64,000 nucleotides of DNA from Candidatus Protoclostridium gallicola. Its GTDB lineage: Bacteria > Bacillota > Clostridia > Christensenellales > Pumilibacteraceae. The notes below the pieces were generated by a model. That model was not told where the DNA came from and ran no database searches. It worked only from the letters and a program-made list of their open reading frames with translations. The stretch lies in NCBI GenBank assembly GCA_904387375.1, contig CAJFLE010000008.1:124001-188000 (forward strand). Direction: 5' to 3'. The position numbers and the translations under genes are program-made. Numbering within the stretch: the stretch's first letter is position 1; the number at the start of each line of letters is the position of its first letter. Of the stretch, positions 12,457-32,694 are shown in pieces.

Positions 12457-12457
12457 T

Positions 12458-13318
12458 TCAGTATCCGAGCTCCTTCATATACCTGTCAAGCGCGTCTCTC
12501 CAGTCCGGCAACGGTGTAAAACCGTTCTTTACCAGCTTGCTCTTATCCAGCCGGCTGTTAAACGGACGTCTGGCTTTCGAAAGTCCGTACTCAGCGGTAG
12601 TAACCGGCACTACCTTTGTCGCATATCCCGCGCGGCGGAATATTTCACACGCAAAATCGTACCAGCTTATATATCCGCCCTCGTTCGTTGCATGGTAATA
12701 TCCGTATTTTTCGCTCTCCGCCATATCCGTCAGCAACCGTGCAAGATCGTACGTGTATGTCGGCGTTCCTATCTGATCGTTTACCACGCGCACCGTATCG
12801 TACTTTTGCCCGAGGCTTAACATTGTCTTTATGAAATTCTTGCCGTTCACGCCGAACACCCACGCTATACGCACGATAAAATACTTTTTCAGCGTGTCGG
12901 CTACGGCGAGTTCGCCATCGAGCTTGGTCTGACCATATACGTTCAGCGGGCTGTACGCCTTGCAATCCGGCTCCCACGGTTTATCCCCCTGGCCGTCGAA
13001 GACATAGTCGGTGGATATATATATCATTTTACAGTCCAGCTTTTTGCAGACGTCGGCGATGTTCCGCGTACCGTCCGCATTCACGGCACGCACTTTCGCT
13101 ATGTTTTCTTCCTCTTCGGCCGCATCCACCGCAGTCCATGCCGCGCAATGTACAACGACGTCCGGCGAGGCCTCCGTAATAACACTGTCTACTGCCGCCG
13201 CATCGGTTATGTCCATATCCTCTATATCCACGCCGATGACTTCATAACCGCGCTTTCTGCATTCGTTCGACACGTCGTGACCGAGCTGACCTTTTACTCC
13301 CGTAACGAATATCCTCAT
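12458..13318 (-). CDS. rfbD: dTDP-4-dehydrorhamnose reductase
   Basis: MRIFVTGVKGQLGHDV; STDYVFDG; start reassigned to 13318. Confidence 0.94.
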   Translation of the reverse strand: MRIFVTGVKGQLGHDVSNECRKRGYEVIGVDIEDMDITDAAAVDSVITEASPDVVVHCAAWTAVDAAEEEENIAKVRAVNADGTRNIADVCKKLDCKMIYISTDYVFDGQGDKPWEPDCKAYSPLNVYGQTKLDGELAVADTLKKYFIVRIAWVFGVNGKNFIKTMLSLGQKYDTVRVVNDQIGTPTYTYDLARLLTDMAESEKYGYYHATNEGGYISWYDFACEIFRRAGYATKVVPVTTAEYGLSKARRPFNSRLDKSKLVKNGFTPLPDWRDALDRYMKELGY

Positions 13319-13319
13319 T

Positions 13320-14339: not shown

Positions 14340-14349
14340 TATGCGCTCC

Positions 14350-15246
14350 TTAATATAATCCGTCGAGGTACTTGCCGTCTATAATGGCTTTCAGATACTG
14401 CCCGTACTGGTTGTTCTTCATCGTCTCGCATATCTCCGTCAGACGCGCCTTATCTATCCAGCCGTTCAGATACGCAATCTCTTCCAGGCACGCGATTTTC
14501 CGATGCTGATGAGTTTCCATCGTACGCACGAAATTTGTCGCGTCGACAAGGCTCTCGTGCGTACCGGTATCCAGCCACGTGAAGCCCTGCCCCAATATCT
14601 CGACATGCAGTTCGCCGCCGGCAAGATAAATGCGGTTCAGATCGGTAATTTCATACTCGCCGCGCGCCGACGGTTTCAGCCCTTTGGCATACTCCACGAC
14701 GCGGTTGTCGTAAAAATACAGTCCAGTCACGCAATAGTTGCTTTTCGGCTTTTTCGGTTTCTCTTTGATAGATACCGCTTTCCCGCTGCCGTCGAACTCC
14801 ACAATACCGAACCTCTCCGGATCGTCCACATAGTATCCGAATATAGTCGCGCCTCTGCCGCTCTCCGCATTATGTACCGCTGCCTTCAATCGCTTATTCA
14901 GTCCATGCCCCGCAAAAATATTGTCCCCGAGCACCATAGCTACGCTGTCGTTCCCGATAAACTTCTCGCCGATCACGAACGCCTGCGCCAGTCCGTCCGG
15001 CGACGGCTGAACGGCATACCTCAGACGTATTCCCAGTCTCCAGCCGTCGGACAGCAGCGCCTCGAAACGCGGCGTATCTTCCGGCGTGGATATAATGAGT
15101 ATATCTCTTATCCCGGCATTCATCAGCACGGACAGCGGATAATATATCATGGGTTTGTCGTATACGGGCAACAACTGCTTACTCGTCACCCGCGTCAGCG
15201 GATACAGCCGAGTACCCGAACCTCCCGCCAATATTATTCCTTTCAT
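14350..15246 (-). CDS. rfbA: Glucose-1-phosphate thymidylyltransferase
   Basis: [39 protein letters not shown]. Confidence 0.96.
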
Positions 15247-15257: not shown

Positions 15258-16670
15258 TTACGATCTTTTAAACCGGCGCAGAAGCCCGGACAATTGTCGA
15301 ATATTAAGCAACAGATACACGAGCAGCGCGCCGCCGTATACGGCACAGCCGATCCACAAATCCAACATGCTTGCACACAGAATAAATCCAGCAGTCATTG
15401 CCGCCTCGAGAATGAAAGGCAGAACCATGCGCACGCGTATCGTTTTCAGTACCACGATTTCCGAAGCGATCGACGACAGCATCAATGTGACGACGACGCC
15501 TATGAGTACGGTTTCCAAACTGTCGAAAACAAATGCGCCCAGACAGGAAACGACGGCAGACACCGCGAAAGACGCAACATTGATCACAAGCATTGCCCGC
15601 TCTTTGCGATACGCCTTCAGATAATTGTTAGTAAGCAGATTTATCTTTGACGAATATATGATAATCGGCAGCAGATAACCGAGATACACCAAACTTTCGG
15701 AGTATGCCGGCAGCCACATTGACAAAAGCCAGCATCCCGGAAAATACAAAATCATCGCAGACACAAGCAACGGGCTCATAACTCCGCGTATGTTTTTATA
15801 TACTCCGGGCAGCTTGTCCTGTTCCAATCTCTTCAGTGACGGAAACAGAACCACGCTCGCCGCACTCACAAAAGTCAGGAACACGTTTGATATACTGAAA
15901 GCAAAAGACACCTTGCCGAACACCAATGCGTCCCAATGCCATTGAACTATCATCTTCGCGCCGCCCACGATAAACATCGCAGACCAATTGGCAATCACGA
16001 GATTGATGCCCGCGGCAAGATTAGTCTTCATCTCCGACAGCGTCGGTTTTATTCCGAAACTTTTGCCGAAATACATACCGCGGTTGAAAAATGCAGTCAC
16101 CAGAATACCGATTATGTCGCCGGCAAGATCCGCGACGCAATACCATACGAAATCGTTGACGCCGCACGCAAGAAGAATCACAACGATAATCCCGTATGCC
16201 ACGCGTTGCAGAATTATAAGGATTGCATATCTGTTTATGCGATTGGTTATCTGAAAAGTATACGAGACGTATGTAACGACATTTTTCGTGAGGACACCGA
16301 TGGCCACGAGAATCACGGTGCTTCCTGCCACCCCGTCGAGCGCGACGACTGCCACCACCACGGCCGCGGCGGCAATTATGCTCATAAAAACAAGCATTAC
16401 ATGCAGCTGCGACCGGATACGCGCCTTATCCAGCTCCTCGTAATCATACTGCGAGTAGCGCAACACTATTCCGTCAAGCAGCCCGAAATGAAGTATACCG
16501 ACATAGCCGACATACATGACATAAGTCTGCCAGTAAGCATACTGGTATTCGTCAATAAATTTCGGCACGATAAGCGTCAGCAGAAAACTAACCGCCATAG
16601 AGATAAGCTGAACGGTGATCGATATGATGATATTAGACGCCAGTCTTTTTTTCGTTATCTGTTGTGCCAT
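15258..16670 (-). CDS. Polysaccharide flippase (Wzx/MATE-MVF type)
   Basis: 470 aa, ~12 hydrophobic segments, located in the polysaccharide operon. Confidence 0.8.
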
Positions 16671-16689: not shown

Positions 16690-17907
16690 TCAAATTTTTA
16701 TAGTATTATTGGGCGATAATAAAGATATGACACTCCGACACTTATATTGTTTTATTCTATTCGCATTAAATGCTTCTATATATTCAAACACAAGCAATGT
16801 AATACCTGTGGATGAATATAAAAACGGATTTGTGTAAGCTATAATCAAATAACATAAATACGGTAATGTTTCCGTATATTTATGTCGCAAAATTAATCTA
16901 TATAAAGGGTAAATATACATATATAACATAGGAATAAAACATATTAATCCCACTTGCCGTAATAAATTCCAATATGACAATTCAATATTAGAAACTAACG
17001 CATTTCTCCCATAAGAATAAAATTCTGCACTATATCCGCTGCCAACTATCAATGAAAGAGGATCCTGATTCCATACTTCCAGTATACCCTGTAAATGTCC
17101 ACTTCTAACATCATCAGAACTGCTCTTCCGTACAAATATATCAATGATTAAATCAAAATTATTTAAGGCCATAAATAGAAAAACTAATAATAATATAAAT
17201 ACGGCTAAAATTTTTTTATATAGTCTTTTTTGGACAAAAATAAAATAAATAGATAATGCTATTAATAATATAAATATGTTTGCTCGCGTTCCACTTAATA
17301 CCAAAGCGATAATTGCCAATATTGATAGCCAATAATGTTTATCTCTTAGCGAATAAAAAAGTAAAATAAATAACAATGGTGATGTCTTAAGAAAAATCAT
17401 ATAATATATAGGCAAGTGACTCCCCTTTCCCACCATGGCGTTTTCTGTTTCTACAAGCCACAATAAAATTGGATTATCATTTAAATCAATAATTTGTATA
17501 ATATCTAATAATCCCATCAAGCAAACGAATACAGCCATTAATGATAAAATAAAGCAGAAATATTTTTTAAAACTTAATTTCCTTTTTTTTATGATTAAAT
17601 ATAACAATAGAATATATCCAGGATATCCCATTTTAATATTATTCAATACTACGCCTGTATTGACAATAGAACAAAAAATTGTTATGCATGTCAAAACAAA
17701 GCCACAATAAAAAATTAATTTTTCATCGGCCCCATTCAAGCTCAAAAAACAAGTTATATTAATTACATATAACAGTATTAATGAAATAATTTTCAAATTA
17801 AAATTATCATTGGGTAAAAAAACTACATTAAATAAATATATAAATAATAATAAATTATTAATTTTATTTATCATGCAATATTTACATGAAAAAATCATTT
17901 TAGTCAT
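16690..17907 (-). CDS. Wzy-like polysaccharide polymerase
   Basis: 405 aa multi-TM protein in a very AT-rich segment between flippase and GTs. Confidence 0.7.
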   Translation of the reverse strand: MTKMIFSCKYCMINKINNLLLFIYLFNVVFLPNDNFNLKIISLILLYVINITCFLSLNGADEKLIFYCGFVLTCITIFCSIVNTGVVLNNIKMGYPGYILLLYLIIKKRKLSFKKYFCFILSLMAVFVCLMGLLDIIQIIDLNDNPILLWLVETENAMVGKGSHLPIYYMIFLKTSPLLFILLFYSLRDKHYWLSILAIIALVLSGTRANIFILLIALSIYFIFVQKRLYKKILAVFILLLVFLFMALNNFDLIIDIFVRKSSSDDVRSGHLQGILEVWNQDPLSLIVGSGYSAEFYSYGRNALVSNIELSYWNLLRQVGLICFIPMLYMYIYPLYRLILRHKYTETLPYLCYLIIAYTNPFLYSSTGITLLVFEYIEAFNANRIKQYKCRSVISLLSPNNTIKI

Positions 17908-17908
17908 A

Positions 17909-18823
17909 TCAAATTAAATCCATATGAATTAAAAGTTTTAAATATATATCCCTAATTCCACCGACCGAGAATAAGGTTGATTGTAAAAATTTTTGTTTTA
18001 ATTTTTTTTCTTTATAGTATGATGATACCATATTTAAAATATCTTTTACATCATCATCTATATATTCATAATATACATTTAAAAGTGATTTTGCACTTAA
18101 ACTACGAACACGTCTATCAATCGTTAGCATTCTATTTAATTTAGTAAAAAAACTTTTGACACCTCCCTTTGTAGCACCAATAACGTTATTTCCATGTTGT
18201 CTATAATACATTGTTGGATTATGATCATATAAAACAATGCCCATCATTGCTATAATTTTATGCACAAGCCAATCATGCATTATCACATAATTATTATCAA
18301 TATCATACGAAGTCAACAAATTTTTAGCATAATGATTAAAAACAAATGTACACCCAGGAGCCAAGCTATAGATAAGGGCATGCGCAAAGTCAGTATATAC
18401 TTTGTTTCTAGTATTATTCTTTATCGGATTTAGACTGGCATCAGTAACCGTAACTGAACTACAATATAATATTGGTTGGTTTTGATTACTGAGAGATTGA
18501 ATTGTGTTAACTGCGCGAGATAATTTATCAGTAAACCATATGTCATCTTGATCGCAAAAAGCATAATAATCAGCATCAGGACAATGATTTAATAAATGCC
18601 AAAAACTTTTAGCTGGTTTAATATTGACTCCAGTATACCAATTTAAATTTTTCTGTTTTTTATACTCTTGTAAAATATTTTGAGTATTGTCTGATGAGCC
18701 ATCATCGCGCACAAATATCAAAATTTCTGCATTGTTACAAAGGTCTTGAGCTAAAATACTGTCAAGCTGAGATTGTAAAAATTTTTCGCCGTTATAAGTA
18801 GATAAAAGAACTATTACTTTCAT
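17909..18823 (-). CDS. Glycosyltransferase family 2 (rhamnosyltransferase-like)
   Basis: VIVLLSTYNGEKFLQSQLDSIL; RDDGSSDNT; YAFCDQDDIWFTDKL. Confidence 0.9.
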   Translation of the reverse strand: MKVIVLLSTYNGEKFLQSQLDSILAQDLCNNAEILIFVRDDGSSDNTQNILQEYKKQKNLNWYTGVNIKPAKSFWHLLNHCPDADYYAFCDQDDIWFTDKLSRAVNTIQSLSNQNQPILYCSSVTVTDASLNPIKNNTRNKVYTDFAHALIYSLAPGCTFVFNHYAKNLLTSYDIDNNYVIMHDWLVHKIIAMMGIVLYDHNPTMYYRQHGNNVIGATKGGVKSFFTKLNRMLTIDRRVRSLSAKSLLNVYYEYIDDDVKDILNMVSSYYKEKKLKQKFLQSTLFSVGGIRDIYLKLLIHMDLI

Positions 18824-18838
18824 TATAAAATCTCACTA

Positions 18839-19924
18839 CTAAATTAAACTACAAATTTTCTCATTAATTATACTTTGATCAAATCTGCGTGCGGCCAAGA
18901 GATGACTATTATTACCAAATTGATGCAACAAATTATGGTCAATCAAAAAAGCCTCTATCTTATTTACCAAATCCTCTACATTCTGTTTTTCAACCAAAAA
19001 ACCGTTGTAACCATCTATTACGGTATCCCTGCACCCTACATTATTCGTAGTTATAATCGCGCGGCCAACAGCTTCCGCTTCCATAATAGACATAGGCAAA
19101 CCTTCTCCATAATAAGAAGGTAATATAAAAACAGAACAGTCCTCTAAAAACGGTCGAACATCATCTGTGGTACCCAAATAATTAATTGAACCGTCGGATA
19201 TAAACTCTTGTATATCGGCTATTTTCAGATCACCCTCCGCGCCTAAGTAATTAAAAACAGCTTCTGGGTATTTTTGTTTAACTATTCTTGCCGCTTTGCA
19301 ATACTCAATTACGCCTTTTGTACGTAACATTCTCGCCACCATCAAAAAGGTATTATATTTTCTCAAAGTACGGTATGCAAATCTTTCCAAGTCAACTCCT
19401 ATTCCGTTTATATGCACACATTGAGAATGAGTAGCAATACACTTGTTTATAAATTCGGTTTTATCGTCATTATTCAAAAAGAATATTTTATCGACCGAGC
19501 GCATTGATTTTTTATACATTCGGCAAACGACCCAACGTATAAAACGCCATTTTATGCTATTATATATAAAGACATCGCCAAGCCCCTCAACCATAGCAAA
19601 TATTCTGTTTACGCCTACCTTTTTGGCGCTCAACGTTCCTATAATATTAGGTTTTAACATAAACGTAAAAACCAAATCAGGTTTTATTTTGTTTATAATT
19701 TTTATATAGTAATGCTTTAAAGCAAAAAATTTAAATGGATTAATGCTTCTATTTGATTGAGGAATGCAATAAAATTCCACACCCATGCGCTCTATATCGT
19801 CTTTATATATTTGGTCAAACGCAATAACCTGAATTGTATGTCCAAGGCTCTGCATTTTTTTTATAAGGCCATATCTAAAACCCTTGACTGACGCCGAGGT
19901 CGTACATATCATAAGTATTTTCAT
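18839..19924 (-). CDS. Glycosyltransferase family 4
   Basis: MVARMLRTKGVIEYCKAARIVKQKYPEA; LPSYYGEGLPMSIMEAEAVGRAIITTNNVGCRD. Confidence 0.9.
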   Translation of the reverse strand: MKILMICTTSASVKGFRYGLIKKMQSLGHTIQVIAFDQIYKDDIERMGVEFYCIPQSNRSINPFKFFALKHYYIKIINKIKPDLVFTFMLKPNIIGTLSAKKVGVNRIFAMVEGLGDVFIYNSIKWRFIRWVVCRMYKKSMRSVDKIFFLNNDDKTEFINKCIATHSQCVHINGIGVDLERFAYRTLRKYNTFLMVARMLRTKGVIEYCKAARIVKQKYPEAVFNYLGAEGDLKIADIQEFISDGSINYLGTTDDVRPFLEDCSVFILPSYYGEGLPMSIMEAEAVGRAIITTNNVGCRDTVIDGYNGFLVEKQNVEDLVNKIEAFLIDHNLLHQFGNNSHLLAARRFDQSIINEKICSLI

Positions 19925-20607
19925 ACGCTATAATCCAATAATTTTAAAATATCGAATATCGATGCAATGTTATCAATAATATAATCCGGTTCGACGTTAT
20001 CTAAATAGTCTTCTTTTGCGTAAAAACCGTTGCTCATGAATCTGACTGTCGTTATAGGTATATATTGTTTTACTGCAAAATCTTTCCGCGGGTTATCTCC
20101 TATATACAATAAGTTTGATATATCTATATTCAATCTTTGCGCCATCAATATAAAAGATGCCGGATTGGGCTTTCGGTACCCGACGCCGCCCAAAGCATCC
20201 GTAACAATGATTTCATCCATATACTCGTGCAGTTGCAACGCTTTTATCTTCTGCGCTTGCTGGATACTTCTTCCGTCAGTAATCAATCCGATTTTATATT
20301 TTCCATGCCGTAATATTTTCAATGTGGAAACGATATCCGGCGGTAACGATATCCTCGGATAATGATTACGATAAACGGCCGCAATATCGGAAATATCATC
20401 ATCTGAAAAAACTATATTTTCATCTTTCAGAAGTCTATCGTAAACATTATTTTTATCTAAGGAAAACAATTTCAATAATTTCTCATAGGCTTTTTCTATC
20501 CCATACTTATTCATTAAAAAATCTGCTACCGTTCGAAAACCTGACAATACATAATCATATTCACGATATAAAGTATCGTCCAAATCAAATATTATTGCTT
20601 TTATCAA
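19921..20607 (-). CDS. HAD-superfamily hydrolase
   Basis: AIIFDLDDTLYREYDYV; IGLITDGRSIQQAQKI; YIGDNPRKDF. Confidence 0.9.
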   Translation of the reverse strand: MIKAIIFDLDDTLYREYDYVLSGFRTVADFLMNKYGIEKAYEKLLKLFSLDKNNVYDRLLKDENIVFSDDDISDIAAVYRNHYPRISLPPDIVSTLKILRHGKYKIGLITDGRSIQQAQKIKALQLHEYMDEIIVTDALGGVGYRKPNPASFILMAQRLNIDISNLLYIGDNPRKDFAVKQYIPITTVRFMSNGFYAKEDYLDNVEPDYIIDNIASIFDILKLLDYSV

Positions 20608-22280
20608 TTCTTTTCTATCCTTATACTGCTGTCGAAACGGGAAAAGATAACACCGTTCTCATAATTTTCATTGTATTTAAGTTTTTGACCCATTAATATT
20701 CGGTAAAGGTTTTCACAACTATCTGCGCCGGCCATAATACTCATCGGAGCGCCGCCTCCGAATCTCGGATTGATTTCTATATATTTTACCGTATTATCAT
20801 CACATAAAAAGCATTGTACTGTTATGTGCCCGATAAATCCAAATGATGTCACAAGCCGTTTGACGTTGTCTATAACGATTCGGTTTTTATCAATTTTGCC
20901 TTTTAGTATTTCACCGCCACGTGTTGCCAGACGCACCCTCGGAACTATCGTAATTATATTACCGTCAAAATCCGAAAAACAATCAACCGTGTATTCACGT
21001 CCGGATATAAATTCCTGCACAATAGGATCCGGAATATATTCGACAAAGAACTTTAATTCATATTCATTCTTTACTTTAAACGTATTGATACTCGAACTAC
21101 CGTTCCTTGGTTTTATAAATAGCGGAAACGTATATTGTTGGACTGCAGACGTCGAAGAAGTAAAAATATGTGGACAATCAAAGCCATGCGTCGTAAAGTA
21201 TTCTGCTGTTTTCAGTTTATCGCAGCAAACGGATACAACGGCCGCATCGGAAATCATAACTTTTGCCTTGGTGTTTTTTTGTATAAAATCTTTATTTTCG
21301 GCAAGTATTTCCAGTTCGGTATCGATAGTCGGTATAATAAGTGAAACATTCTCATTGTTGCAAAGTTCTATAACGGCGTTCAAATAGTCCTTATCAAATA
21401 TTTTCGGTATAATATAATGTTTATCCGCAAAATACAATGCAGGCGCAGTATCTGATATGTCTGCAGCTATTATTGCCCCGTTTATGTTTAATCGTTTAGC
21501 TGCATTTTTAAAGCAATTAACAAGTTCGACACGTCTTCCGGCACTTAAAATTAAAACATTGATTTGCTTATTTTGTTTGTTTGCCGTACCCTTAAAAAAT
21601 TCCATAGTCGCCTGTCCTTCCTGCGAGATCCCTTTTCTTGAAAATACTGATATTACCGTTTTACAAATTATTTGTAAATCCATTACAAGAGAAAACTTAT
21701 TAACATATTCGATATCCTTTTTAAATTTATCCTCCCATGAGATTGCATTACGTCCTGATGTTTGTGCCAACCCGGTCAAACCGGGACGAACATTATGTCT
21801 TTGACGTTGCTCTTCTGTATATAGATCCAAGTACTGCACAAGCAACGGGCGCGGACCGACTATGCTCATTTGTCCGACAAAAATATTAAACAGTTCCGGA
21901 AGCTCGTCCAGCGAAGTGCTGCGTAGTATTCTGCCGTAACGCGTAAGACGCTTTTCGTCCGGGAGCAGATTCCCGTCGGAATCCTTTTCGCATGTCATGG
22001 TACGAAATTTAATGAGCCTGAATATTTTTTCGTCTTTTCCCGGGCGAAGCTGCGTAAAAAACGGATTGCCTTTCATTTTCACCGCCCCGAGTACTATAAG
22101 CACGAGAAATACCGGCGACAGGGCAGCGATACCGATACCGCTCAGCACAATATCGTAAAATCTTTTGAAAAACCGTCTGTACAGCAATGCCGACAAAAGT
22201 ATCCATACGGCGGCGGCAAGTATGCAAATAATCAGAACTCCCCACCACGTCGATATTAATGTTTCAAAAAATTCTTTCAT
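20604..22280 (-). CDS. Fusion: initiating monotopic sugar phosphate transferase (PglC/WcaJ-like) + ATP-grasp ligase domain
   Basis: N-terminal RFYDIVLSGIGIAALSP..FFTQLRPGKDEKIFRLIKFRTM..TSLDELPELFNIFVGQMSIVGPRPL; C-terminal VLILSAGRRVELVNCFKNAAKR..LFIKPRNGSSSINTFKVKNEYEL..YIEINPRFGGGAPMSI. Start reassigned to 22280 (MKEFFETL). Confidence 0.9.
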   Translation of the reverse strand: MKEFFETLISTWWGVLIICILAAAVWILLSALLYRRFFKRFYDIVLSGIGIAALSPVFLVLIVLGAVKMKGNPFFTQLRPGKDEKIFRLIKFRTMTCEKDSDGNLLPDEKRLTRYGRILRSTSLDELPELFNIFVGQMSIVGPRPLLVQYLDLYTEEQRQRHNVRPGLTGLAQTSGRNAISWEDKFKKDIEYVNKFSLVMDLQIICKTVISVFSRKGISQEGQATMEFFKGTANKQNKQINVLILSAGRRVELVNCFKNAAKRLNINGAIIAADISDTAPALYFADKHYIIPKIFDKDYLNAVIELCNNENVSLIIPTIDTELEILAENKDFIQKNTKAKVMISDAAVVSVCCDKLKTAEYFTTHGFDCPHIFTSSTSAVQQYTFPLFIKPRNGSSSINTFKVKNEYELKFFVEYIPDPIVQEFISGREYTVDCFSDFDGNIITIVPRVRLATRGGEILKGKIDKNRIVIDNVKRLVTSFGFIGHITVQCFLCDDNTVKYIEINPRFGGGAPMSIMAGADSCENLYRILMGQKLKYNENYENGVIFSRFDSSIRIEKN

Positions 22281-23410
22281 TTGCAAAAACAACTTTTTAT
22301 GATATCGATCACTCCGTTTTGCTCGTCTTCGGTCATTTTGATATCCGACGGAAGGCACAGCCCTCGTGCAAAAATGTCCTCGTCGACAGGTCGCTCATCT
22401 GCAAAAATAAAATCGTTATGCATAAATACCGGCTGCATGTGCATCGGCTTCCATATCGGTCTGGATTCGATGCCGCAGGACGCAAGTTTTTCGTATACCG
22501 TCATGGGCGAAACATCACAGTTATTGTCGATCAACATACATGAAAGCCAAAAATTCGGCCGCGTATACGGGAGATAAGGATTCATTGTCACCGGCAGACC
22601 TGCAAACGCCCGTTTATATCCGAAATATATTTTTTCTTTCAGTTCGCGGTGTTCTTCCAGATGCAACAGCTGTCCCCTGCCTATTCCGGCAACCACATTG
22701 GACATACGATAGTTGTAGCCTATTTCTTTATGCTGATACCACGGCGCTTTCTCTCTGGATTGAGTAGCCCAGAAAAATGCCTTGTTTCTTGCGCTTTCGT
22801 CTGCCGTAATAAGCATACCCCCGCCCGACGTCGTAATAATTTTATTTCCGTTGAAGCTTATTGCATTGTAATTCCCGAATGTACCGGTCTCTCGGTTCCG
22901 ATACGTCGCCGACAGAGATTCTGCGGCATCTTCGATCAGCACCGCATTATGCGCTTTGCAAATTTCAATTATTTCGTCAAGCTTTGCAGGAGTACCGTAA
23001 AGATGTGCGAGTACCACGACTTTGGCATCCGGATATTTTTCGAAAGCCTTTTCCAACGCGCGCGGATCCATGTTCCACGTTTCCCGTTCGGAGTCTACAA
23101 ACACCTGAATCCCGCCCTCGTATGAAACGGGATTGACCGTCGCCGAAAATGTCATATCGGAGCAAAGTACCGTATCGCCGCGTTTGACGCCCGCAAGTTT
23201 CACGGCCAAGTGCAGCGCGGAAGTTCCGGAACATAACGCAAGAGTATAAAAGTGTTCGGATATTCCGCGTCCGAGATAATCGCTCATTTCACTTTCGAAA
23301 CCGTCGCAGTTGAATCCGAGCGGAGCTATCCAGTTCCTGTCGAACGCCTCTTGTACGAATTTCATTTCTTCGCCGTGCATAGTGGGCGATGAAAGTAATA
23401 TCTTATTCAT
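22277..23410 (-). CDS. DegT/DnrJ/EryC1/StrS aminotransferase (PglE-like)
   Basis: LCSGTSALHLAVKLAGVKRGD; VLIEDAAESLSATY; ISFNGNKIITTSGGGML. Confidence 0.93.
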   Translation of the reverse strand: MNKILLSSPTMHGEEMKFVQEAFDRNWIAPLGFNCDGFESEMSDYLGRGISEHFYTLALCSGTSALHLAVKLAGVKRGDTVLCSDMTFSATVNPVSYEGGIQVFVDSERETWNMDPRALEKAFEKYPDAKVVVLAHLYGTPAKLDEIIEICKAHNAVLIEDAAESLSATYRNRETGTFGNYNAISFNGNKIITTSGGGMLITADESARNKAFFWATQSREKAPWYQHKEIGYNYRMSNVVAGIGRGQLLHLEEHRELKEKIYFGYKRAFAGLPVTMNPYLPYTRPNFWLSCMLIDNNCDVSPMTVYEKLASCGIESRPIWKPMHMQPVFMHNDFIFADERPVDEDIFARGLCLPSDIKMTEDEQNGVIDIIKSCFCK

Positions 23411-23414
23411 ATAA

Positions 23415-25250
23415 TTACGCTTCCTTCTTCCTTCGGTACGTGGGAACCAGCTCGGCGATCACGTCACGGATGCTCTCCGATTCGCCGCGAGCGGCGGCTT
23501 CGAGCCTGCCGAGCATGAGTTTAAGGAAATCCTCGTCGAGCGGTATGGGGCGCGCTATGTTGATCAGACCGTTGGCGGTGGTCTGCAATCCTTCCTCGTC
23601 CATGAGACGTTCCTCATACAGTTTTTCGCCCGGACGCAGCCCCGTGAACTTTATTTCGATATCCGTGCCCGGCTCATAACCGGACAGCCGTATAAGGTTG
23701 AGCGCGAGGTCGTATATGCGCACCGGCTCGCCCATATCCAGCACGAAAATCTGACCGCCTTTGGCGTACGCGCCCGCCTGAAGTATGAGCATGACCGCTT
23801 CGGGTATAGTCATGAAATACCTGATGATATCCGGATGCGTCACGGTCACCGGACCGCCCTCGCGGATCTGTTCGCGGAACAGCGGTATGACCGAGCCGTT
23901 CGATCCGAGCACGTTGCCGAAACGCACGGCGACGAAATTGGTATTTGTGCTGTGCCGGCCTATCGTCTGAATTATCATTTCGCAGATGCGCTTGGTCGCG
24001 CCCATGACGTTGGTCGGATTGACGGCCTTGTCCGTGGATATCTGCACGAATGTCTTCGCGCCGTATTTGTCCGCCATAAGCGCGCAGTTGAGCGTACCGA
24101 ACACGTTGTTCTTGACCGCCTCGTTCGGACTCGTTTCCATGAGCGGAACATGCTTATGCGCCGCCGCGTTGAATACGATATCCGGCTTATACGTGCCGAA
24201 TACGTTTTCGATTTTCGTTTTATCCCGCACGCTGGCGATAAGCGTGAGCAGATCGAGGTCGGGATGCCGCCGTTTAAGTTCCTGTTCTATTTCGTATGCG
24301 TTGTTCTCGTATATATCGAGAATGATCAGCCGCCCCGGTCTGTGCGTCGCGATCTGGCGGCACAGCTCGCTGCCTATGGATCCGCCGCCGCCCGTAACGA
24401 GAATGGTCTGTCCTTCGATATATCCCATGATCTCGTCGAGATTGACGGTAATCTGCTCGCGGCCGAGCAGGTCGGTTATATCCACCTCGCGCAACGCGGC
24501 TATCGTGGCCTCTCCGCTGACGAGCTGGTAAACGCCGGGCAGGATCTTCACCTTGCACTTCGTCTGCTTGCATATGTCCACGACGCGCGAAATCTCTTTC
24601 TTGCCGACAGACGGAATGGCGATGAGTATTTCCTCGATGTTGTATTTCGCGGCCATTCTGGGAATGTCCGCCGACGTGCCCACTATGCGCACGTTGGATA
24701 TCGAGCGTCCGACCTTGCCCGTATCGTCGTCCACGATACATACCGGCAGATATTTGATCTTGTCCGTGGTCTGCATTTCGCGCACCAGTGCGGTGCCGGC
24801 GCTGCCACCGCCCACTATCATGGCGCGGACCGTTCCCGGTTTGCCGCGGCGGAACAGAATGTAATATACAGCCAGCAGCAGTCTTTTGGCGAATCTCGAC
24901 AGAAGCACGAGATTGAGCAGCACGACGCTGTACGTCAGACAAGTCTGCACATCAACTGTACGGAATGCCAGCGAATATATCACATTGCATATACAAACGC
25001 CGAGTACTGCGGCACATACGCGCAGCGCGTCTATGATACCCGCCGAGCCGTAGATGATATTGTACAGTCTGAATATTACGAAAAAGATGCCGGCAAAGCC
25101 TATATTGGCAATGTACCACCACAGCGTCAGCAGGTCGAACGTTACCGCGCCTTCCGAGAAAAGCATGGCAAGCAGGATGGACAGCGTGACGCTTACGAGA
25201 TCGCACAGCACCGCAATAACGGTATTTCTTGTTCTTCCGTGTTTTTTCAT
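23415..25250 (-). CDS. Membrane-anchored nucleoside-diphosphate-sugar 4,6-dehydratase (CapD/PglF-like)
   Basis: N-terminal TMs; ILVTGGGGSIGSELCRQI; FNAAAHKHVPLMETSPNEAVKNNVFGT; ISTDKAVNPTNVMGATKR. Confidence 0.94.
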   Translation of the reverse strand: MKKHGRTRNTVIAVLCDLVSVTLSILLAMLFSEGAVTFDLLTLWWYIANIGFAGIFFVIFRLYNIIYGSAGIIDALRVCAAVLGVCICNVIYSLAFRTVDVQTCLTYSVVLLNLVLLSRFAKRLLLAVYYILFRRGKPGTVRAMIVGGGSAGTALVREMQTTDKIKYLPVCIVDDDTGKVGRSISNVRIVGTSADIPRMAAKYNIEEILIAIPSVGKKEISRVVDICKQTKCKVKILPGVYQLVSGEATIAALREVDITDLLGREQITVNLDEIMGYIEGQTILVTGGGGSIGSELCRQIATHRPGRLIILDIYENNAYEIEQELKRRHPDLDLLTLIASVRDKTKIENVFGTYKPDIVFNAAAHKHVPLMETSPNEAVKNNVFGTLNCALMADKYGAKTFVQISTDKAVNPTNVMGATKRICEMIIQTIGRHSTNTNFVAVRFGNVLGSNGSVIPLFREQIREGGPVTVTHPDIIRYFMTIPEAVMLILQAGAYAKGGQIFVLDMGEPVRIYDLALNLIRLSGYEPGTDIEIKFTGLRPGEKLYEERLMDEEGLQTTANGLINIARPIPLDEDFLKLMLGRLEAAARGESESIRDVIAELVPTYRRKKEA

Positions 25251-25269: not shown

Positions 25270-27105
25270 TCACTCGACCGTCACACTCTTTGCCAGATTT
25301 CTGGGCTTGTCCACGTCAAGTCCCCTTGCGACGCTGACGTAATAGCCCAAAAGCTGCAGAGGTATGACCGCTAGACTGGCTGCAAACCTGCCGTCGGTTA
25401 CCGGTATGTATACCGTGAAATCCGCCGTGTTCTCTATATTGTAATTGCCGTAGCTCGTCAGCCCCATGAGATACGCGCCGCGACTCTTGGCCTCGGTCAT
25501 GTTGCTGACTGTCTTTTCGTACAACTTCTCCTGCGTAAGAATACCTATGACCAGCGTTCCGTCCTCTATAAGACTGATGGTACCGTGTTTCAGTTCGCCG
25601 GCGGCGTACGCTTCGGAGTGAATATAACTTATCTCCTTCATTTTAAGGCTGCCTTCCAGACTAACGGCATAATCTATGCCGCGGCCGATAAAGAAGATAT
25701 CTTTCGCGTTGGAATATTTGGACGCGAACCACTGTATGCGCCCTTTGTCTTCGAGCAGGCGCTCGATTTTGTCCGGCAGCGTGCGCAGTTCCGTCACGAG
25801 TGACATCCGTTCTTCCGCCGTTATGCGGCCGCGCAGCTCGGCAAGTCTGATTGCGAGAAGATAACCGACTATGAGCTGGGCGCTGTACGCCTTCGTCGTC
25901 GCGACGGATATTTCCGGACCCGCGACCGTCATCATGACGTGATCCGCTTCGCGGGCTATCGAGGAGTCGCGCACGTTGACGACGGCAAGAGTACGCATAC
26001 CGCGGCGGGACGCTTCGCGCAGCGCGGCGAGGCTGTCCGCCGTTTCGCCCGACTGACTTATCACGACTACGAGTCCGTCCTCTTCTAGAATGGGGTTGCG
26101 ATACCGGAATTCGGACGCCAGCTCCACGCGCACGGGAATGCCGGCAAGGTCCTCGATGACGTACTGCGCCGCCACGCCCGCATGATAAGCGGAGCCGCAC
26201 GCGGCTATATATATCCGCCCGACTTTGCCGAGTATGTCGTCCGTCAGCCCCGCGCGGGACAGATCGACGGAATCGCCGTCCAGATACGCGCACAGCGTAT
26301 CGCGCACCACGCGCGGCTGTTCGTGTATCTCCTTCATCATGAAATGCTCGTAGCCGCCTTTTTCCGCGGACTCGGCGTCCCACCTGATTTCGGTCTGCTC
26401 TTTGCTTATCTCTTCGCGATCTATATTATAGAACGTTACCGCGCCGCTTTCCAGCCTGGCGATTTCCAGGTTGCCTATATAATACACGCGTCTGGTATAT
26501 TTGAGTATTGCGGGCACGTCGGAAGCGAGATACGACTCTCCGCCGTTTACGCCTATTATCATGGGGCTGTCCTTGCGCGCGGCGTATATGCAGCCGGGCG
26601 CGTCGGCGAACATAACGGCGATTGCGTAAGAGCCGCGCGAGCGCAGCATGAAACGCGACATCGCCTCGACCGGATCGCCGGACTTGCGGTAATAGTAATC
26701 TATAAGCTTTGTCGCGACCTCGGTATCCGTCTGCGAATAGAACTTATATCCGCTGCGGCTCAGCTTGTCTTTGAGTTCGGAATAGTTCTCTATTATTCCG
26801 TTGTGCACGGCGATGACGTTGCCGTCGTCGCTGCAGTGAGGGTGAGCGTTTTCCTCGCTCGGTTCGCCGTGCGTAGCCCACCGCGTGTGCCCTATACCGC
26901 ACGTGCCCTTCATCGAAAGTCCGCCGTTCACCTTTGCGGACAGCACGCCGAGATTACCGCGGGCTTTGACGATTTCCGTCTTTGCGATGCCGTCGCGCAC
27001 CGCCAGCCCCGCGGAGTCGTACCCGCGATATTCCAGTTTTTTCAGTCCCTCGAGCAATATGGGCGCAGCCTGCCTGCCGCCCGAATATCCCACAATTCCG
27101 CACAT
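25270..27105 (-). CDS. glmS: Glutamine--fructose-6-phosphate aminotransferase
   Basis: MCGIVGYSGGRQAAPILLEGLKKLEYRGYDSAGLAV; HTRWATHGEPSEENAHPH; C-terminal LAKSVTVE. Confidence 0.97.
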   Translation of the reverse strand: MCGIVGYSGGRQAAPILLEGLKKLEYRGYDSAGLAVRDGIAKTEIVKARGNLGVLSAKVNGGLSMKGTCGIGHTRWATHGEPSEENAHPHCSDDGNVIAVHNGIIENYSELKDKLSRSGYKFYSQTDTEVATKLIDYYYRKSGDPVEAMSRFMLRSRGSYAIAVMFADAPGCIYAARKDSPMIIGVNGGESYLASDVPAILKYTRRVYYIGNLEIARLESGAVTFYNIDREEISKEQTEIRWDAESAEKGGYEHFMMKEIHEQPRVVRDTLCAYLDGDSVDLSRAGLTDDILGKVGRIYIAACGSAYHAGVAAQYVIEDLAGIPVRVELASEFRYRNPILEEDGLVVVISQSGETADSLAALREASRRGMRTLAVVNVRDSSIAREADHVMMTVAGPEISVATTKAYSAQLIVGYLLAIRLAELRGRITAEERMSLVTELRTLPDKIERLLEDKGRIQWFASKYSNAKDIFFIGRGIDYAVSLEGSLKMKEISYIHSEAYAAGELKHGTISLIEDGTLVIGILTQEKLYEKTVSNMTEAKSRGAYLMGLTSYGNYNIENTADFTVYIPVTDGRFAASLAVIPLQLLGYYVSVARGLDVDKPRNLAKSVTVE

Positions 27106-27145: not shown

Positions 27146-28534
27146 TTACTTTGCTTCGTATCCTTTGCGCCTGATTACGTCCGCGACGTATTCCGCACAG
27201 CAGCGGCACATCTCTTCCGTTTCCGCTTCCGCCATGACGCGGATAAGCGGTTCGGTGCCCGATTCCCGCAGCAGCAGCCTGCCACGTCCGCTCAGTCTGC
27301 GTTCCGCTTCGGCGGCCGCCGCGATCACGTCCTCGTCGTTCATGACCGCGTCCTTGTCGTTCACTCTGACGTTTATGAGCAGCTGCGGATATATCTTCAA
27401 CGGCGCCGCAAGCTTGCCGAGCGTCGTTTTCTTGGCGATTACGACTTCCATCATTTTCAGACTGGTCAGAATACCGTCGCCCGTCGTGGCGTATTTGGAA
27501 AAGATTATATGCCCCGACTGTTCTCCGCCCAGCCTGTTGCCGTTTCTGACCATATAATCATGCACGAATTTGTCGCCGACCGCCGTCTTTGCATATCCGA
27601 TTCCGATCTCGTCGAAAGCTTTGTAAAGCCCGAAATTGGACATCACGGTCGTCACTACGGTATTGCCTAAAAGCTTGCCGCGCTCTTTCATATACCTTCC
27701 GTATATGTAAAGGATATGGTCGCCGGTGACAACGTTGCCGTTTTCGTCCACGCACAGACATCGATCGGCATCCCCGTCGTACGCGAAACCTATATCCAGA
27801 CTGTTTTCCCGCACCAACCGCTGCAGCCCGTCTATATGCGTCGAGCCCGCGTTTTTGTTTATGTTGAGTCCGTCCGGCTCCGCATTTATTACGTACGTAG
27901 TTGCGCCGAGAGCGTCGAACACGGATTTCGCTATATTCCAGGCGCTGCCGTTGGCGCAGTCCAGCCCGACGCGCATACCGCGGAACGAGTACACTCCCAG
28001 CGAGATCAGATATCCTATATATCTGTTACGTCCGGACGCGTAATCCACCGTGCGCCCTATCTTTTCTCCGGTCGCGTACGGCAGTTCGCCGTACTTTTTT
28101 CCGAACGCCTCCAGCTTGCCGTCGATATAGTCTTCGATGAGCGATAATGTTTTGTCGTCCATTTTTTCGCCCTGGCCGTTAAGCAGTTTGATTCCGTTAT
28201 CGTAGTACGGGTTGTGACTGGCGGATATCATTATACCGCAGTCGAACGCGTCCACACGGGCGACGTAAGCCACGGACGGCGTGGTGGTCACATGCAGCAG
28301 GTACGCGTCCGCGCCCGACGCCGTCAGTCCGGATACCAGAGTATACTCGAACATATAACTCGAGCGGCGCGTGTCTTTGCCTATCACGATACGCGGCGCC
28401 GTTTCGTCGCCGGCGCGGCGTTTTAGTTCGCCGTAATACCAGCCCAGAAAACGACCTATCCTGTACGCGTGTTCGGCCGTCAGATTGACGTTGGCTTCAC
28501 CGCGGAAGCCGTCTGTTCCGAAATACCGACCCAT
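27146..28534 (-). CDS. glmM: Phosphoglucosamine mutase
   Basis: MGRYFGTDGFRGEANVNLT; MISASHNPYYDNGIKL; FAYDGDADRCLCVDENG. Confidence 0.96.
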   Translation of the reverse strand: MGRYFGTDGFRGEANVNLTAEHAYRIGRFLGWYYGELKRRAGDETAPRIVIGKDTRRSSYMFEYTLVSGLTASGADAYLLHVTTTPSVAYVARVDAFDCGIMISASHNPYYDNGIKLLNGQGEKMDDKTLSLIEDYIDGKLEAFGKKYGELPYATGEKIGRTVDYASGRNRYIGYLISLGVYSFRGMRVGLDCANGSAWNIAKSVFDALGATTYVINAEPDGLNINKNAGSTHIDGLQRLVRENSLDIGFAYDGDADRCLCVDENGNVVTGDHILYIYGRYMKERGKLLGNTVVTTVMSNFGLYKAFDEIGIGYAKTAVGDKFVHDYMVRNGNRLGGEQSGHIIFSKYATTGDGILTSLKMMEVVIAKKTTLGKLAAPLKIYPQLLINVRVNDKDAVMNDEDVIAAAAEAERRLSGRGRLLLRESGTEPLIRVMAEAETEEMCRCCAEYVADVIRRKGYEAK

Positions 28535-29220
28535 TATCCCTCCTCATGGGTGAATTTTTCTTTTCGTTTAATTACTGCGGAGTCGTTTTTGACGATGCAG
28601 TCTGCGGGATATACGCCGCGCAGCGAAGTCAGAGGATAAACGCTCGTTCTCCGGCCCAATATCGTCCCCGGATTAAGCACGCTGTTGCAGCCGATCTCCG
28701 CATAGTCGCCTATCATGGCGCCGAACTTCTTCAGTCCCGTCGTTATCCTTTCCCCGCCGCAACGCACCGTTACGGCGCTTCTGTCGCCTTTGACGTTTGA
28801 CGTTATAGATCCCGCTCCCATATGCGCTTTATGACCGAGTATGCTGTCGCCCACATAGTTATAGTGCGGTACCTGCACGCCGTCGAACAGTATGACGTTT
28901 TTCAGTTCCACCGAGTTACCTATCACGCAGTTTCTGCCCACGAGAGCGCTGCCGCGTACGAAAGCGCAGTGCCGTACTTCAGTGCCCTCTCCTATGATGC
29001 ACGGTGCGCCGAGGTATGCCGTCGGAGCAACCCGTGCGCTGCGGTGCACCCATACTTCCGGAGCGACTTCGGTATAATCGCCGCCGAGAGTCTTACCGAG
29101 CGCGGCGACCAGCTCCTTTATTCCGGCCAGCGCTTCCCACGGACGGACATACCCCGACAGATATTCCGCCGCCGCAGTATATTCAAGATCGAACAGCTCT
29201 GCCGTTTCCGGTACTTTCAC
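28534..29220 (-). CDS. Left-handed beta-helix (hexapeptide) transferase, GlmU C-terminal-like, no nucleotidyltransferase domain
   Basis: VWVHRSARVAPTAYLGAPCIIGEGTEVRHCAFVRGSALVGRNCVIGNSVELKN; GAGSITSNVKGD. Confidence 0.85.
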   Translation of the reverse strand: MKVPETAELFDLEYTAAAEYLSGYVRPWEALAGIKELVAALGKTLGGDYTEVAPEVWVHRSARVAPTAYLGAPCIIGEGTEVRHCAFVRGSALVGRNCVIGNSVELKNVILFDGVQVPHYNYVGDSILGHKAHMGAGSITSNVKGDRSAVTVRCGGERITTGLKKFGAMIGDYAEIGCNSVLNPGTILGRRTSVYPLTSLRGVYPADCIVKNDSAVIKRKEKFTHEEG

Positions 29221-31510
29221 TTCCGCCTCCGTTTGTTTTCTTTCCCGATGGAACCCATTCCATGCCTATTTCGTCCAGCCGCGCTTTGCGCTCGTCTGAC
29301 AGCGTGCCGTTGCGATATGACACCCGCTGCACGCTTATCCACTTTTCCAGATCGACGCCGCCGACGCCGTAGTGCTGCGGCGGGCGCAGATTTCCGTATC
29401 TGCGATAGTATTCTGCGGCGAGCGCGTACCGCGTTTCCCATGCGTCCGCTTTCGGCGCGAATCCTATTTCTTTCAGCCTCCCGAGTTTCGCCACGGAAAG
29501 ACTGCCGCGCGCCGCCCGATAGCGCTGTACGCTCAGCCATTTGCCCAGCGCAACGCCGTCTGTTTTATACCCGACCGGAATATCGAGATTGCCGTGCTCG
29601 GAGTAATACTTTGCAGCCAGCGCGTACTTTTCCGACCACGCTTTATCCCCGGCGTTTTCCCATGACATACCGATTTTATCCAGTCGCATGCGCTGTTCGT
29701 CGGTCAGACTTTTCTGTCTTGCGCGCAGCGAGCGCAGCCACGACCCCAGCTGAACGCCGTCGTCCGTTCTGTAGCCGGACGGTACGGCGAGATTGCCGCA
29801 GGCCTCGTAATATTTTTCCGCCGCCCGCATATTGCGTTCCCAAAGGCTGCCCGATTTGTCCCATATCATGCCGAGTTCGTCCAACATGGAGATACGTTCG
29901 GGCGTAAGCGTACCGACGGTTATGTTACCGGCGCGCTTCTGACGAAGATTGGCGACCCATACGCCGAGAGCGAAACCGCTTTTCGTACGGTACGACACGG
30001 GGACGTCGAGATCCCCGCGTTCCGCTTTATACCGGCGGGCCTCGGCGTAACCGCGTGCAAATGCGATATCGCTGCGGCTGTCCCATATCATGCCTATGGC
30101 GGTCAGCCGTTTTATCTGACTGTCGGTCAGCACCCCGCGGCGGCAGCCGCTCCTGACCGCCCGCTGAGTATTTATCCAGCTCCCGAGCGGAAGACCGTCC
30201 GGAGTCCGGTAACGCTTCGGAACGGCAAGATTGCCGTGTTCCTCCGCGTATGCGCGCGCGACGGCGAACATTTCGTCCCACGACGCGGACAGCGTATCCT
30301 CCAACGCGTCAAACAGCCGGCGGCATTCGCGCACTTCGTCGATTACGGTAAAGCGCTCGTTGATTACGAAAGCGTTCTCACCGGTCATACGGTAATACCC
30401 TATCGCATGCTCCATTTCCGACTCTATGGCGCCCACACTGTAAAGGTTTTCGAAATTATCGACGATATCAAAGATTACGGGCGCGCCGCCGGACGCGGAA
30501 AGCGCACGGCCTATCTGCTGTTTGTACACTATGGGCGACACCGTGGGACGGAACAGTATTACGCCGCTTACGCCGCTTACGTGCACGCCCTCGTTGAGCA
30601 TATCTATCGCATACAGCAATTTCAGATGATCGCTGTCGTCGCTTTTGAATGCCGCGAAACTTTTCGCCGATACCGGGTCGTCGGAATATACGCGGTATAT
30701 GCGTGGAGACGGATCCACCTTGCCGAACATCTCTCCGGCTCGCGAAATCATTTCGTCCATGTGCCGCGCATCCGAACAGAACACTATATATCTGCCGCGG
30801 CGGTCTGTCATGCGTCTGTCGAACACGACGTCGAGTCCGTCCGCTTTATCCAGCGCCCGACGCAATGCGTCGAGGTATTTCTCTGCGGCATTTCTTGCCG
30901 CTGGATTTTTGGCGCGCCGTACTCTGCGTTCGTATTTTCCCAGTTCTTTGCGGCAGGAATAGAGTGCGGTAACGTATACCGGCGGTCGGAGTATGCCTCG
31001 CACTATCGCTTCGCCGAGCGTCATTTCGCTCGCCACGCAGCCGCCGAACAGTTCTTCCGCCATATCTCGACGGGAATCGAGATAACGTATGCTTGTTGCC
31101 GACAGTCCGACGAACGGCACCGCCGGAAACATCGCGATGAGCCGTTTCACGCTCCTGCCCCATTCTGCCGCGCCCGCGCGGTGAAATTCGTCGAGAACGA
31201 TCAGATCGGGGGCGAGATTACGCATTTCCGCATCGGTAGAATGCATCAGACGGGCGTATGTACGGAACGTAATATTGCCCGGAGCGCTTCCGCAAGCCGA
31301 GCGCACCGCTTCGAGCTGCGTACGGAATATATACTCGCTCGGCGACAGCCAGAGCACGCTTCCGCCGGCATACTTTTCGGCAAGGGCAAATCCTATGAAC
31401 GATTTCCCGGTACCCGTCGGATGGATAACGGCGGCGCGTCCTTCGCGCTGCAGCATGGCAAACGCAGCCTCGCAGGCCGTTCGATTGTGCTCAAACAGTT
31501 CTACCGCCAT
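29183..31510 (-). CDS. DEAD/DEAH superfamily II helicase with five C-terminal helicase-associated (HA) repeats
   Basis: IHPTGTGKSFIGFALA Walker A; VLDEFHRAGAAEW; RPTVSPIVYKQQIGRAL motif VI-like; five repeats of the form A.YY..HGNLDIPVGYKT.DGV.LG.W....R. Confidence 0.9.
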   Translation of the reverse strand: MAVELFEHNRTACEAAFAMLQREGRAAVIHPTGTGKSFIGFALAEKYAGGSVLWLSPSEYIFRTQLEAVRSACGSAPGNITFRTYARLMHSTDAEMRNLAPDLIVLDEFHRAGAAEWGRSVKRLIAMFPAVPFVGLSATSIRYLDSRRDMAEELFGGCVASEMTLGEAIVRGILRPPVYVTALYSCRKELGKYERRVRRAKNPAARNAAEKYLDALRRALDKADGLDVVFDRRMTDRRGRYIVFCSDARHMDEMISRAGEMFGKVDPSPRIYRVYSDDPVSAKSFAAFKSDDSDHLKLLYAIDMLNEGVHVSGVSGVILFRPTVSPIVYKQQIGRALSASGGAPVIFDIVDNFENLYSVGAIESEMEHAIGYYRMTGENAFVINERFTVIDEVRECRRLFDALEDTLSASWDEMFAVARAYAEEHGNLAVPKRYRTPDGLPLGSWINTQRAVRSGCRRGVLTDSQIKRLTAIGMIWDSRSDIAFARGYAEARRYKAERGDLDVPVSYRTKSGFALGVWVANLRQKRAGNITVGTLTPERISMLDELGMIWDKSGSLWERNMRAAEKYYEACGNLAVPSGYRTDDGVQLGSWLRSLRARQKSLTDEQRMRLDKIGMSWENAGDKAWSEKYALAAKYYSEHGNLDIPVGYKTDGVALGKWLSVQRYRAARGSLSVAKLGRLKEIGFAPKADAWETRYALAAEYYRRYGNLRPPQHYGVGGVDLEKWISVQRVSYRNGTLSDERKARLDEIGMEWVPSGKKTNGGGSESTGNGRAVRS

Positions 31511-31522
31511 TGTTCCTCCGCG

Positions 31523-31551
31523 GCGGCGCTTAATAATATATTAAGCGCCGC
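31523..31551. repeat. 29-bp palindromic recombinase-type site, copy 1
   Basis: GCGGCGCTTAATAATATATTAAGCGCCGC: 11-bp arms GCGGCGCTTAA / TTAAGCGCCGC and asymmetric centre TAATATA. Confidence 0.8.
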
Positions 31552-31586
31552 TTTCGACATAATTCAACATCCGATTTATTCAATAT

Positions 31587-31615
31587 ATTTTATCATAGCG
31601 TTTTTTTTAAGTCAA
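31587..31615 (-). promoter_or_regulatory. Sigma-A-type promoter inside the candidate invertible segment, pointing into the EPS operon
   Basis: Minus strand: -35 TTGACT (31610-31615), 17-bp spacer, -10 TAAAAT (31587-31592). Confidence 0.7.
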
Positions 31616-31723
31616 GATATTGCTTACACTATTTTATCTTTCCCGAATATACCACATACCGGTCACATATCTTTCACAATTAATCCGAAAAAAACACTTA
31701 ACGCGTCGTCACGCATCACCGTG

Positions 31724-31752
31724 GCGGCGCTTAATATATTATTAAGCGCCGC
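31724..31752. repeat. 29-bp palindromic recombinase-type site, copy 2 (exact reverse complement of copy 1)
   Basis: GCGGCGCTTAATATATTATTAAGCGCCGC. Confidence 0.8.
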
Positions 31753-31755
31753 TTT

Positions 31756-32694
31756 TCAGATATCGGGCGGATAAAAAGTGCGGTCGATGAGTTTAACCGC
31801 ACGGCGTTTTGTTTCCGCCATGCTGTGCAGATATTTGTTCATCGTCACGTGTGTATTTTTGTGACCGAGCAGTTCGCTTATAGTTTTGACGTCCACGCCG
31901 CATTCTATACCGCGGGTCGCAAAAGTATGACGCAAAGAGTGAAATCCAATATGTCTGACGCCTATGCCGGCAAGAAATCGTTCGAACCGGTGCTGATATG
32001 CCCGGACCGTAAGCGGACCTTTTCCGTCGCTCACGACATATTCGGAACCCGAAGAGTCCCGGAGTTTTCCGAGAACCGAGGCGAGCGCCGACGACACCGG
32101 TATGCGGCGGACGGACGACGCCGATTTGGGCAGATCGGTATGCTCGACGTATACGCCGTTCAATCTGAACCGGCACACGGTTTTATTCACATTGATGATC
32201 CGCGCACGCAGATCCACGTCTTTCCACAGCAGCGACAGCAATTCTCCGATGCGAAGTCCGGTATGCAATGCTATGACTATTCCTATATAAGCGCCGCCGC
32301 GTTTCATGGCGCAGGTTTCGACAAGCCTTTGTTCGCGTGCGGACAGAACCGACACCGGTTTGCTGCATTCCCTGGCGCGCACCACGAGGTCGCACGGGTT
32401 GGACCTGATATGTCCGAAACGTACCGCGCACCCGAAAGCGTTCCGCACGACGGCGAATATCATATTTACGCTGCGGGCGGACAGCGGCGCCCCCGTGCGC
32501 AGATTGCCGCGCAGCAGTTTGCCGCTCATGAATATCTGCAATACATCCGGCGTGACGGCGTCGAGTTCGAGTCCGCCCAGTTCCGGCATTATGTGGTTGT
32601 CGATCACACCGCGGTAAATACTTTGCGTATGCGGTTTCACACGCAGGCGCATACGTTCATCCAGCCAGAAATTCAGCCATTCTTTTGTAGTCAT
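31756..32694 (-). CDS. Tyrosine recombinase / phage-integrase family
   Basis: ALHTGLRIGELLSLLWKDVD; FHSLRHTFATRGIE; LLGHKNTHVTMNKYLHS (R..HxxR..Y catalytic set). Confidence 0.95.
   Translation of the reverse strand: MTTKEWLNFWLDERMRLRVKPHTQSIYRGVIDNHIMPELGGLELDAVTPDVLQIFMSGKLLRGNLRTGAPLSARSVNMIFAVVRNAFGCAVRFGHIRSNPCDLVVRARECSKPVSVLSAREQRLVETCAMKRGGAYIGIVIALHTGLRIGELLSLLWKDVDLRARIINVNKTVCRFRLNGVYVEHTDLPKSASSVRRIPVSSALASVLGKLRDSSGSEYVVSDGKGPLTVRAYQHRFERFLAGIGVRHIGFHSLRHTFATRGIECGVDVKTISELLGHKNTHVTMNKYLHSMAETKRRAVKLIDRTFYPPDI

Follow-up and report, generated by a model that had tools for sequence, protein, structure and literature searches.

A candidate invertible promoter beside a tyrosine recombinase at the head of a polysaccharide operon in Candidatus Protoclostridium gallicola

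Organization of the locus

The window, a 64,000-nucleotide stretch of the genome of Candidatus Protoclostridium gallicola (contig CAJFLE010000008.1, positions 124,001 to 188,000), contained a tyrosine recombinase gene, two inverted repeats enclosing a predicted promoter, and a run of polysaccharide genes headed by a helicase gene (Table 1). The expected 16 minus-strand genes, running from 31510 to 11848 with gaps of no more than 40 bp, were borne out. Pfam annotation also supported their assignment to EPS or capsule synthesis; judged by its gene content, the operon is of the Wzx/Wzy type for a capsule or exopolysaccharide, with rhamnose genes, and its Wzy_C match was under the curated cut-off (30.1 vs 31.7 bits). 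The HA-repeat helicase carried the helicase motifs HPTGTGKS, DEFH, SAT, and QQIGRAL.

Pairs of a LytTR response regulator and a GHKL kinase were located on both sides of the operon (window 5552–10834 and 32885–43325), and were 34% and 30% mutually identical. Family 3 glycoside hydrolases, about 30% identical, were also present in both of these regions.

Table 1. Features of the candidate switch and of the polysaccharide operon (window coordinates)
Feature	Position	Strand	Details
Tyrosine recombinase, candidate invertase	31756..32694	-	312 aa; SAM-like N-terminal PF14659 and PF00589; Pfam E 4e-26
Recombinase-proximal inverted repeat	31724..31752		29 bp, 13-bp arms, centre TAT on + strand; 3 bp past recombinase stop
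Candidate invertible segment	31552..31723		172 bp; layout matched in dozens of relatives
Predicted sigma-A promoter	31587..31615	-	TTGACT-17-TAAAAT, extended -10; faces operon, ON as drawn
Operon-proximal inverted repeat	31523..31551		29 bp, inside 5' leader, 12 bp from helicase ATG
HA-repeat SF2 helicase, first gene of the operon	29183..31510	-	775 aa, five HA repeats; PF03457 E 2.8e-93, ResIII, Helicase_C
Hexapeptide-repeat transferase	28534..29220	-	Pfam
Phosphoglucomutase/phosphomannomutase	27146..28534	-	Pfam
GlmS-like glutamine amidotransferase, two SIS domains	25270..27105	-	Pfam
Polysacc_synt_2 nucleotide-sugar dehydratase/epimerase	23415..25250	-	Pfam E 8e-119
DegT/DnrJ/EryC1 aminotransferase	22277..23410	-	Pfam
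Initiating sugar transferase (Bac_transf) fused to ATP-grasp	20604..22358	-	Pfam
HAD phosphatase, glycosyltransferases of GT group 1 and GT family 2, Wzy-type O-antigen polymerase/ligase-like	16690..20607	-	Pfam
Wzx-type flippase (Polysacc_synt)	15258..16670	-	Pfam
dTDP-rhamnose genes: nucleotidyltransferase, dehydratase, RmlD, RmlC	11848..15246	-	Pfam

Inverted repeats and predicted promoter

The two 29-mers were exact reverse complements (100%) with 172 bp in between, at the positions given in the original prediction, and the distances predicted from them were also right, with the helicase ATG (31510) and the recombinase stop (31756) 12 bp and 3 bp from the nearer site. In 100 shuffles, no chance match to the pair was obtained with up to 3 mismatches. 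Each site had been described as 11-bp inverted arms around an asymmetric 7-bp centre. The inverted arms and the asymmetric centre stood, with a small refinement of the lengths: the maximal palindrome per site consisted of 13-bp arms around a centre of 3 bp, which reads ATA at one site and TAT at the other, so the asymmetry of the site is carried by the central 3 bp only. In the leader RNA, the operon-proximal repeat would form a 13-bp stem.

With its centre left free, the 25-bp core was found only at these two sites of the 1.8 Mb genome, even when 3 mismatches were allowed. Therefore, the 29-mers do not belong to a repeat or terminator family scattered over the genome, and genome-wide occurrence, which had been named as an outcome against the switch, was ruled out. 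The exact 29-mer was not found in viral contigs.

The sigma-A promoter proposed on the minus strand (31615–31587) was confirmed in the sequence, and an extended -10 TG was added to it. This promoter matched 10 of the 12 consensus positions and was the best of the region by sequence alone, scoring 9.9 vs 7.2 for the best of the other strand; promoter-like matches as a class were not above chance in the region (3 observed vs 2.2 expected).

Tyrosine recombinase

The domains of the recombinase were the SAM-like and catalytic domains found in phage-type integrases. Alignment of 29 recombinase relatives showed that R148, K190, H252-xx-R255, H278, and Y288 were invariant, and the R-K-HxxR-H-Y residue set was intact in the window recombinase. 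The closest solved sequences were those of the "Int protein" (6emy, 6emz, and 6en0). Relatives with about 40% identity were common in the Pumilibacteraceae and the order; no recombinase at least 50% identical to that of the window was found, and no relatives were found in viral contigs. When genome contigs were queried with the single sequence, no relatives were obtained, while the alignment query did find them.

A second recombinase of the family was present in the same genome (L033, contig C4, 7949–8860). It was 41% identical and had no clear repeat pair past its stop.

Homologous cassettes in related genomes

Repeat pairs were scanned from 40 bases before to 500 bases after the stop codon of each gene. 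A pair scoring at least 12 was present past the stop in 64 of the 108 recombinase relatives, compared with 14 of 250 control gene ends; about 40% of the relatives had no clear pair there. The pair usually started within about 50 bp of the recombinase stop, and its inner length was mostly 100–190 bp. Site sequences varied between cassettes, and most had palindromic cores (for example, CTATT-GTTGT-AATAG and GAATA-ACA-TATTC). The conserved order of the cassette was recombinase, inverted repeat, promoter, inverted repeat, and payload. In the 58 clean cassettes, the best sigma-A promoter pointed towards the recombinase in 35, away from it in 20, and was undecided in 3.

Comparative analysis of a cassette of Pumilibacter muris (L038) with that of a close relative (L099) showed that the flanks were collinear at 93–95% identity, whereas the part enclosed by the 19-bp repeats aligned, at 93%, in the opposite direction. 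The promoter faced the payload in L099 and the recombinase in L038. Because the remaining alignments were all collinear, the difference is a local inversion bounded exactly by the repeats. Since no recombinase with 50% identity or more was found, the inverted example comes from a recombinase that shares 42% identity with that of the window and has different sites. P. muris, a cultured species, belongs to the same family as the window's organism (NCBI placement: Clostridia, Pumilibacteraceae), and a cassette of the same layout (L135) heads its HA-helicase polysaccharide operon.

The first payload genes encoded surface proteins with List_Bact_rpt and LRR, Ig-like proteins, lipoproteins, DNA methyltransferases, a LytTR regulator, a NusG-family protein (L037), and HA helicases, and a lipobox-like motif was present in 19 of 49. 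That the payloads were often surface proteins or DNA methyltransferases matches what is expected of phase-variable genes. Methyltransferase-like first payloads (MmeI-type, EcoRI-type) were located in L011, L063, L085, and L124 and in L023 and L056; the type in each cassette was judged by N-terminal sequences, and families were only counted. The sequences of these cassettes suggest phase-variable DNA methylation or restriction. The cassette of L037 (8318–14262) headed the NusG-family gene, which had genes for AAA ATPases and a trypsin-like peptidase behind it instead of polysaccharide genes.

Proposed inversion of the promoter segment

The original reading of the locus as a recombinase-linked promoter switch was supported by the conserved cassette order, by the two promoter orientations across relatives, and by the inverted sister cassette, together with the anatomy of the locus and the uniqueness of its sites in the genome. 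These comparisons make it highly likely that segment 31552–31723 is an invertible promoter switching the polysaccharide operon, and the locus most likely functions as an ON/OFF switch for that operon. The tyrosine recombinase would pair both 29-bp sites and invert the enclosed 172 bp. In the drawn orientation (ON), transcription from the promoter would cross the near site and continue into the HA helicase gene and the Wzx/Wzy/rhamnose operon; in the inverted orientation (OFF), it would enter the recombinase gene at its 3' end, leaving the operon without this promoter. We infer that the recombinase acts on the 29-mers, that the segment flips at the window's locus, and that expression follows its orientation. 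Since promoter inversion would toggle the operon ON and OFF, surface polysaccharide would be switched on and off at random among cells.

The palindromes might instead act as transcription terminators or attenuator hairpins with an insulating role for the recombinase gene and for the operon, and no inversion would take place. A 13-bp RNA stem is possible at each site, and TTTT follows the plus-strand copy beside the recombinase end. However, termination does not require two sites to be exact inverted 29-bp copies with swapped centres, the core of the sites occurs nowhere else in the genome, the T-runs outside the sites of the relatives were inconsistent (17 of 58 in the terminator sense vs 7 of 58 in the other), and a sister cassette was found inverted, so this explanation is very improbable. 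A role of the T-runs in ending antisense transcripts was also considered and rejected as weak on the same counts. The kinship of the recombinase family with the integrases of integrative elements (6emz and relatives) would be consistent with attachment sites of a mobile element inserted by the recombinase, the inverted pair being incidental. Against this stand the enclosure of nothing but a promoter, the constant position of the repeat with respect to the recombinase stop in dozens of relatives whose payloads are unrelated, and the inverted orientation of the sites, in which recombination gives inversion and not excision; such an origin is extremely unlikely.

It is also unlikely that a formerly active switch is now locked ON, with the recombinase inactive on the sites or unexpressed. 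The ON orientation was the only one seen in the one genome of the species compared, a draft assembly of 28 contigs, which would fit a locked switch, but the recombinase frame was intact with all catalytic residues present, and the complete complementarity of both sites gave no sign of decay.

Comparison with known promoter switches

Mpi of Bacteroides fragilis is a serine recombinase acting on many loci, while the promoter switch proposed here has an adjacent tyrosine recombinase and a site pair that is unique in the genome. The PSA-type loci of B. fragilis, with Mpi and UpxY/UpxZ, resemble it in the ON/OFF promoter inversion that heads polysaccharide operons (cited in PMC12118408 and PMC11892184). 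In Bacteroidales, promoter inversion ahead of capsule operons is well established, also at loci that have a tyrosine-type invertase or integrase next to them and an UpxY or NusG gene first (PMC12118408). Site-specific integrases or tyrosine-type invertases lie upstream of the capsule loci of Parabacteroides distasonis and Bacteroides xylanisolvens (PMC12118408); the original prediction was therefore wrong to take the adjacent tyrosine recombinase as a difference from known capsule switches. The loci of these two species share with the window a recombinase gene, an invertible promoter in inverted repeats, a polysaccharide operon, and a first gene that is not a sugar enzyme, and the inverted repeats are palindromic in P. 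distasonis, as in the window. They differ in site sequences and in the length of the segment, which is 172 bp in the window and about 290–345 bp in these species (PMC12118408). UpxY or NusG comes first in these species (PMC12118408), whereas the first gene of the window's operon is not an antiterminator of the UpxY/NusG family but the HA-repeat SF2 helicase, in a Clostridia host. The real difference from known capsule switches is this first-position helicase together with the Clostridia host.

Clostridioides difficile also belongs to the Clostridia, and the short promoter segment of its pdcB switch is 174 bp long with 19-bp repeats (PMC9286219). RecV inverts the flg and cmr switches of this species, and the pdcB recombinase was not identified there (PMC9286219, PMC7446863). 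The payloads in C. difficile are flagella, regulators, and a phosphodiesterase, whereas the window payload is a polysaccharide operon (PMC9286219, PMC7446863). Another study described inverton group 139 and tyrosine invertase group 35 in gut Clostridia, with flipping observed in culture, and Clostridia invertons linked to a nearby tyrosine recombinase flipped in gut communities (PMC11892184). By that description, the window shares with them a candidate Clostridia inverton and a neighbouring tyrosine-type recombinase, and helicases are not mentioned in the main text of that study (PMC11892184).

The inversion principle is already known. What is new is the host group and the recombinase family with private sites, and most of all an HA helicase that keeps recurring. 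Phase-variable capsules have been best studied in Bacteroidales, and the window cassette would extend their logic to poorly known gut Clostridia. Across uncultured members of this group, a portable recombinase and promoter cassette appears to drive genes for surface proteins and DNA methyltransferases and, in the window, an entire polysaccharide operon.

HA-repeat helicases and inversion systems

Relatives of the HA helicase were rare, occurring in 8 of 297 genomes of the order (E <= 1e-40) and 8 of 392 genomes of the class (E <= 1e-60), with the window's genome included in each count. An inversion architecture was located directly ahead of the HA helicase in 15 of the 16 assessable Clostridia loci; L143, L151, L171, L172, and L185, where a contig end cut the upstream region, were left uncounted. 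The window, L135/L137 (one element in two genomes), and L049 had a recombinase of the window family and a segment of 127–172 bp (type a). L150, L168, and, weakly, L149 (12-bp arms) had a different, XerC-like recombinase and a segment of 240–295 bp (type b). In L164, L165, L166, and L169, a recombinase 28–34% identical lay inside a segment of 1.3–1.5 kb with inverted sites of 20–23 bp (type c), and L140, L154, and L167 had a repeat pair with no adjoining recombinase found (type d). Two loci found after the pattern had been noted both fitted it: L183 had a XerC-like recombinase and a 216-bp segment, and L184 a 1.4-kb segment around the recombinase. No inversion system was present in the upstream region of L170, a distant helicase homologue (33% identical).

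Among the control genes, whose true background is lower since they include payload genes of switches, a short upstream pair scored at least 12 in 28 of 200 and at least 15 in 8 of 200, and a long pair at least 18 in 0 of 80. Nine of the 15 positive loci had a short pair of at least 15, five had a long pair of at least 18, and one (L149) reached only 12.

The self-flipping cassettes (L164, 6531–8021; L165, 5706–7009; L166, 1021–2332; L169, 4923–6458; L184, 6388–7852) had the recombinase gene between perfect or near-perfect inverted palindromic sites of 20–23 bp. The enclosed recombinase had the same direction as the helicase in L164, L165, L166, and L169, and the opposite direction in L184. L164 and L165 come from the same genome as L184, so type (c) occurs in both orientations. 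In L140 (G043:C14), the repeat pair upstream of the HA helicase was CACCTATTATTGTAAT, and the promoter faced away from the operon; as no recombinase adjoins it, this pair would be served in trans, if it flips.

Where the downstream sequence was long enough, the helicase gene was followed by that of an initiating sugar transferase or by another polysaccharide gene. The downstream sequence of L049, L154, and L167 ended too early for the payload to be judged, and the single gene read behind the helicase in L169, a dehydrogenase/cytidylyltransferase, was not diagnostic. The loci do not count as fully independent, because helicase and sugar transferase may move as a unit. However, the switches differed in design and in their recombinases, so a single inherited cassette does not account for the association of the helicase with switching.

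It is possible, though less likely than not, that the HA helicase works for the switched operon itself. Tentatively, HA helicases could be a dedicated part of phase-variable polysaccharide operons of Clostridia, acting as an ON-only regulator required for, or governing, expression of the switched operon. By analogy, the helicase might then possibly be a translocase doing the job of the UpxY/UpxZ or NusG antiterminators of Bacteroidales. It might help RNA polymerase along the long operon, or control other polysaccharide loci. Its recurrence behind at least three switch designs points to an unstudied regulator and poses a concrete, testable question. No paper placing an HA helicase at this position was found in a literature search from which subscription papers were largely absent, and a search on PF03457 gave nothing relevant. 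An AlphaFold model of the helicase built from two sequences was of low confidence (pLDDT 53, pTM 0.28). A defence role was also considered: the PADLOC matches (PbeA, type IV restriction) were weak and mostly on the generic SF2 helicase core, so this reading was not supported.

In two genomes counted as different species, the HA-helicase switch regions L004 (G031:C5) and L005 (G014:C3) were 99.94% identical over 3.4 kb and diverged upstream of the recombinase. Their near-identity perhaps reflects a recent transfer.
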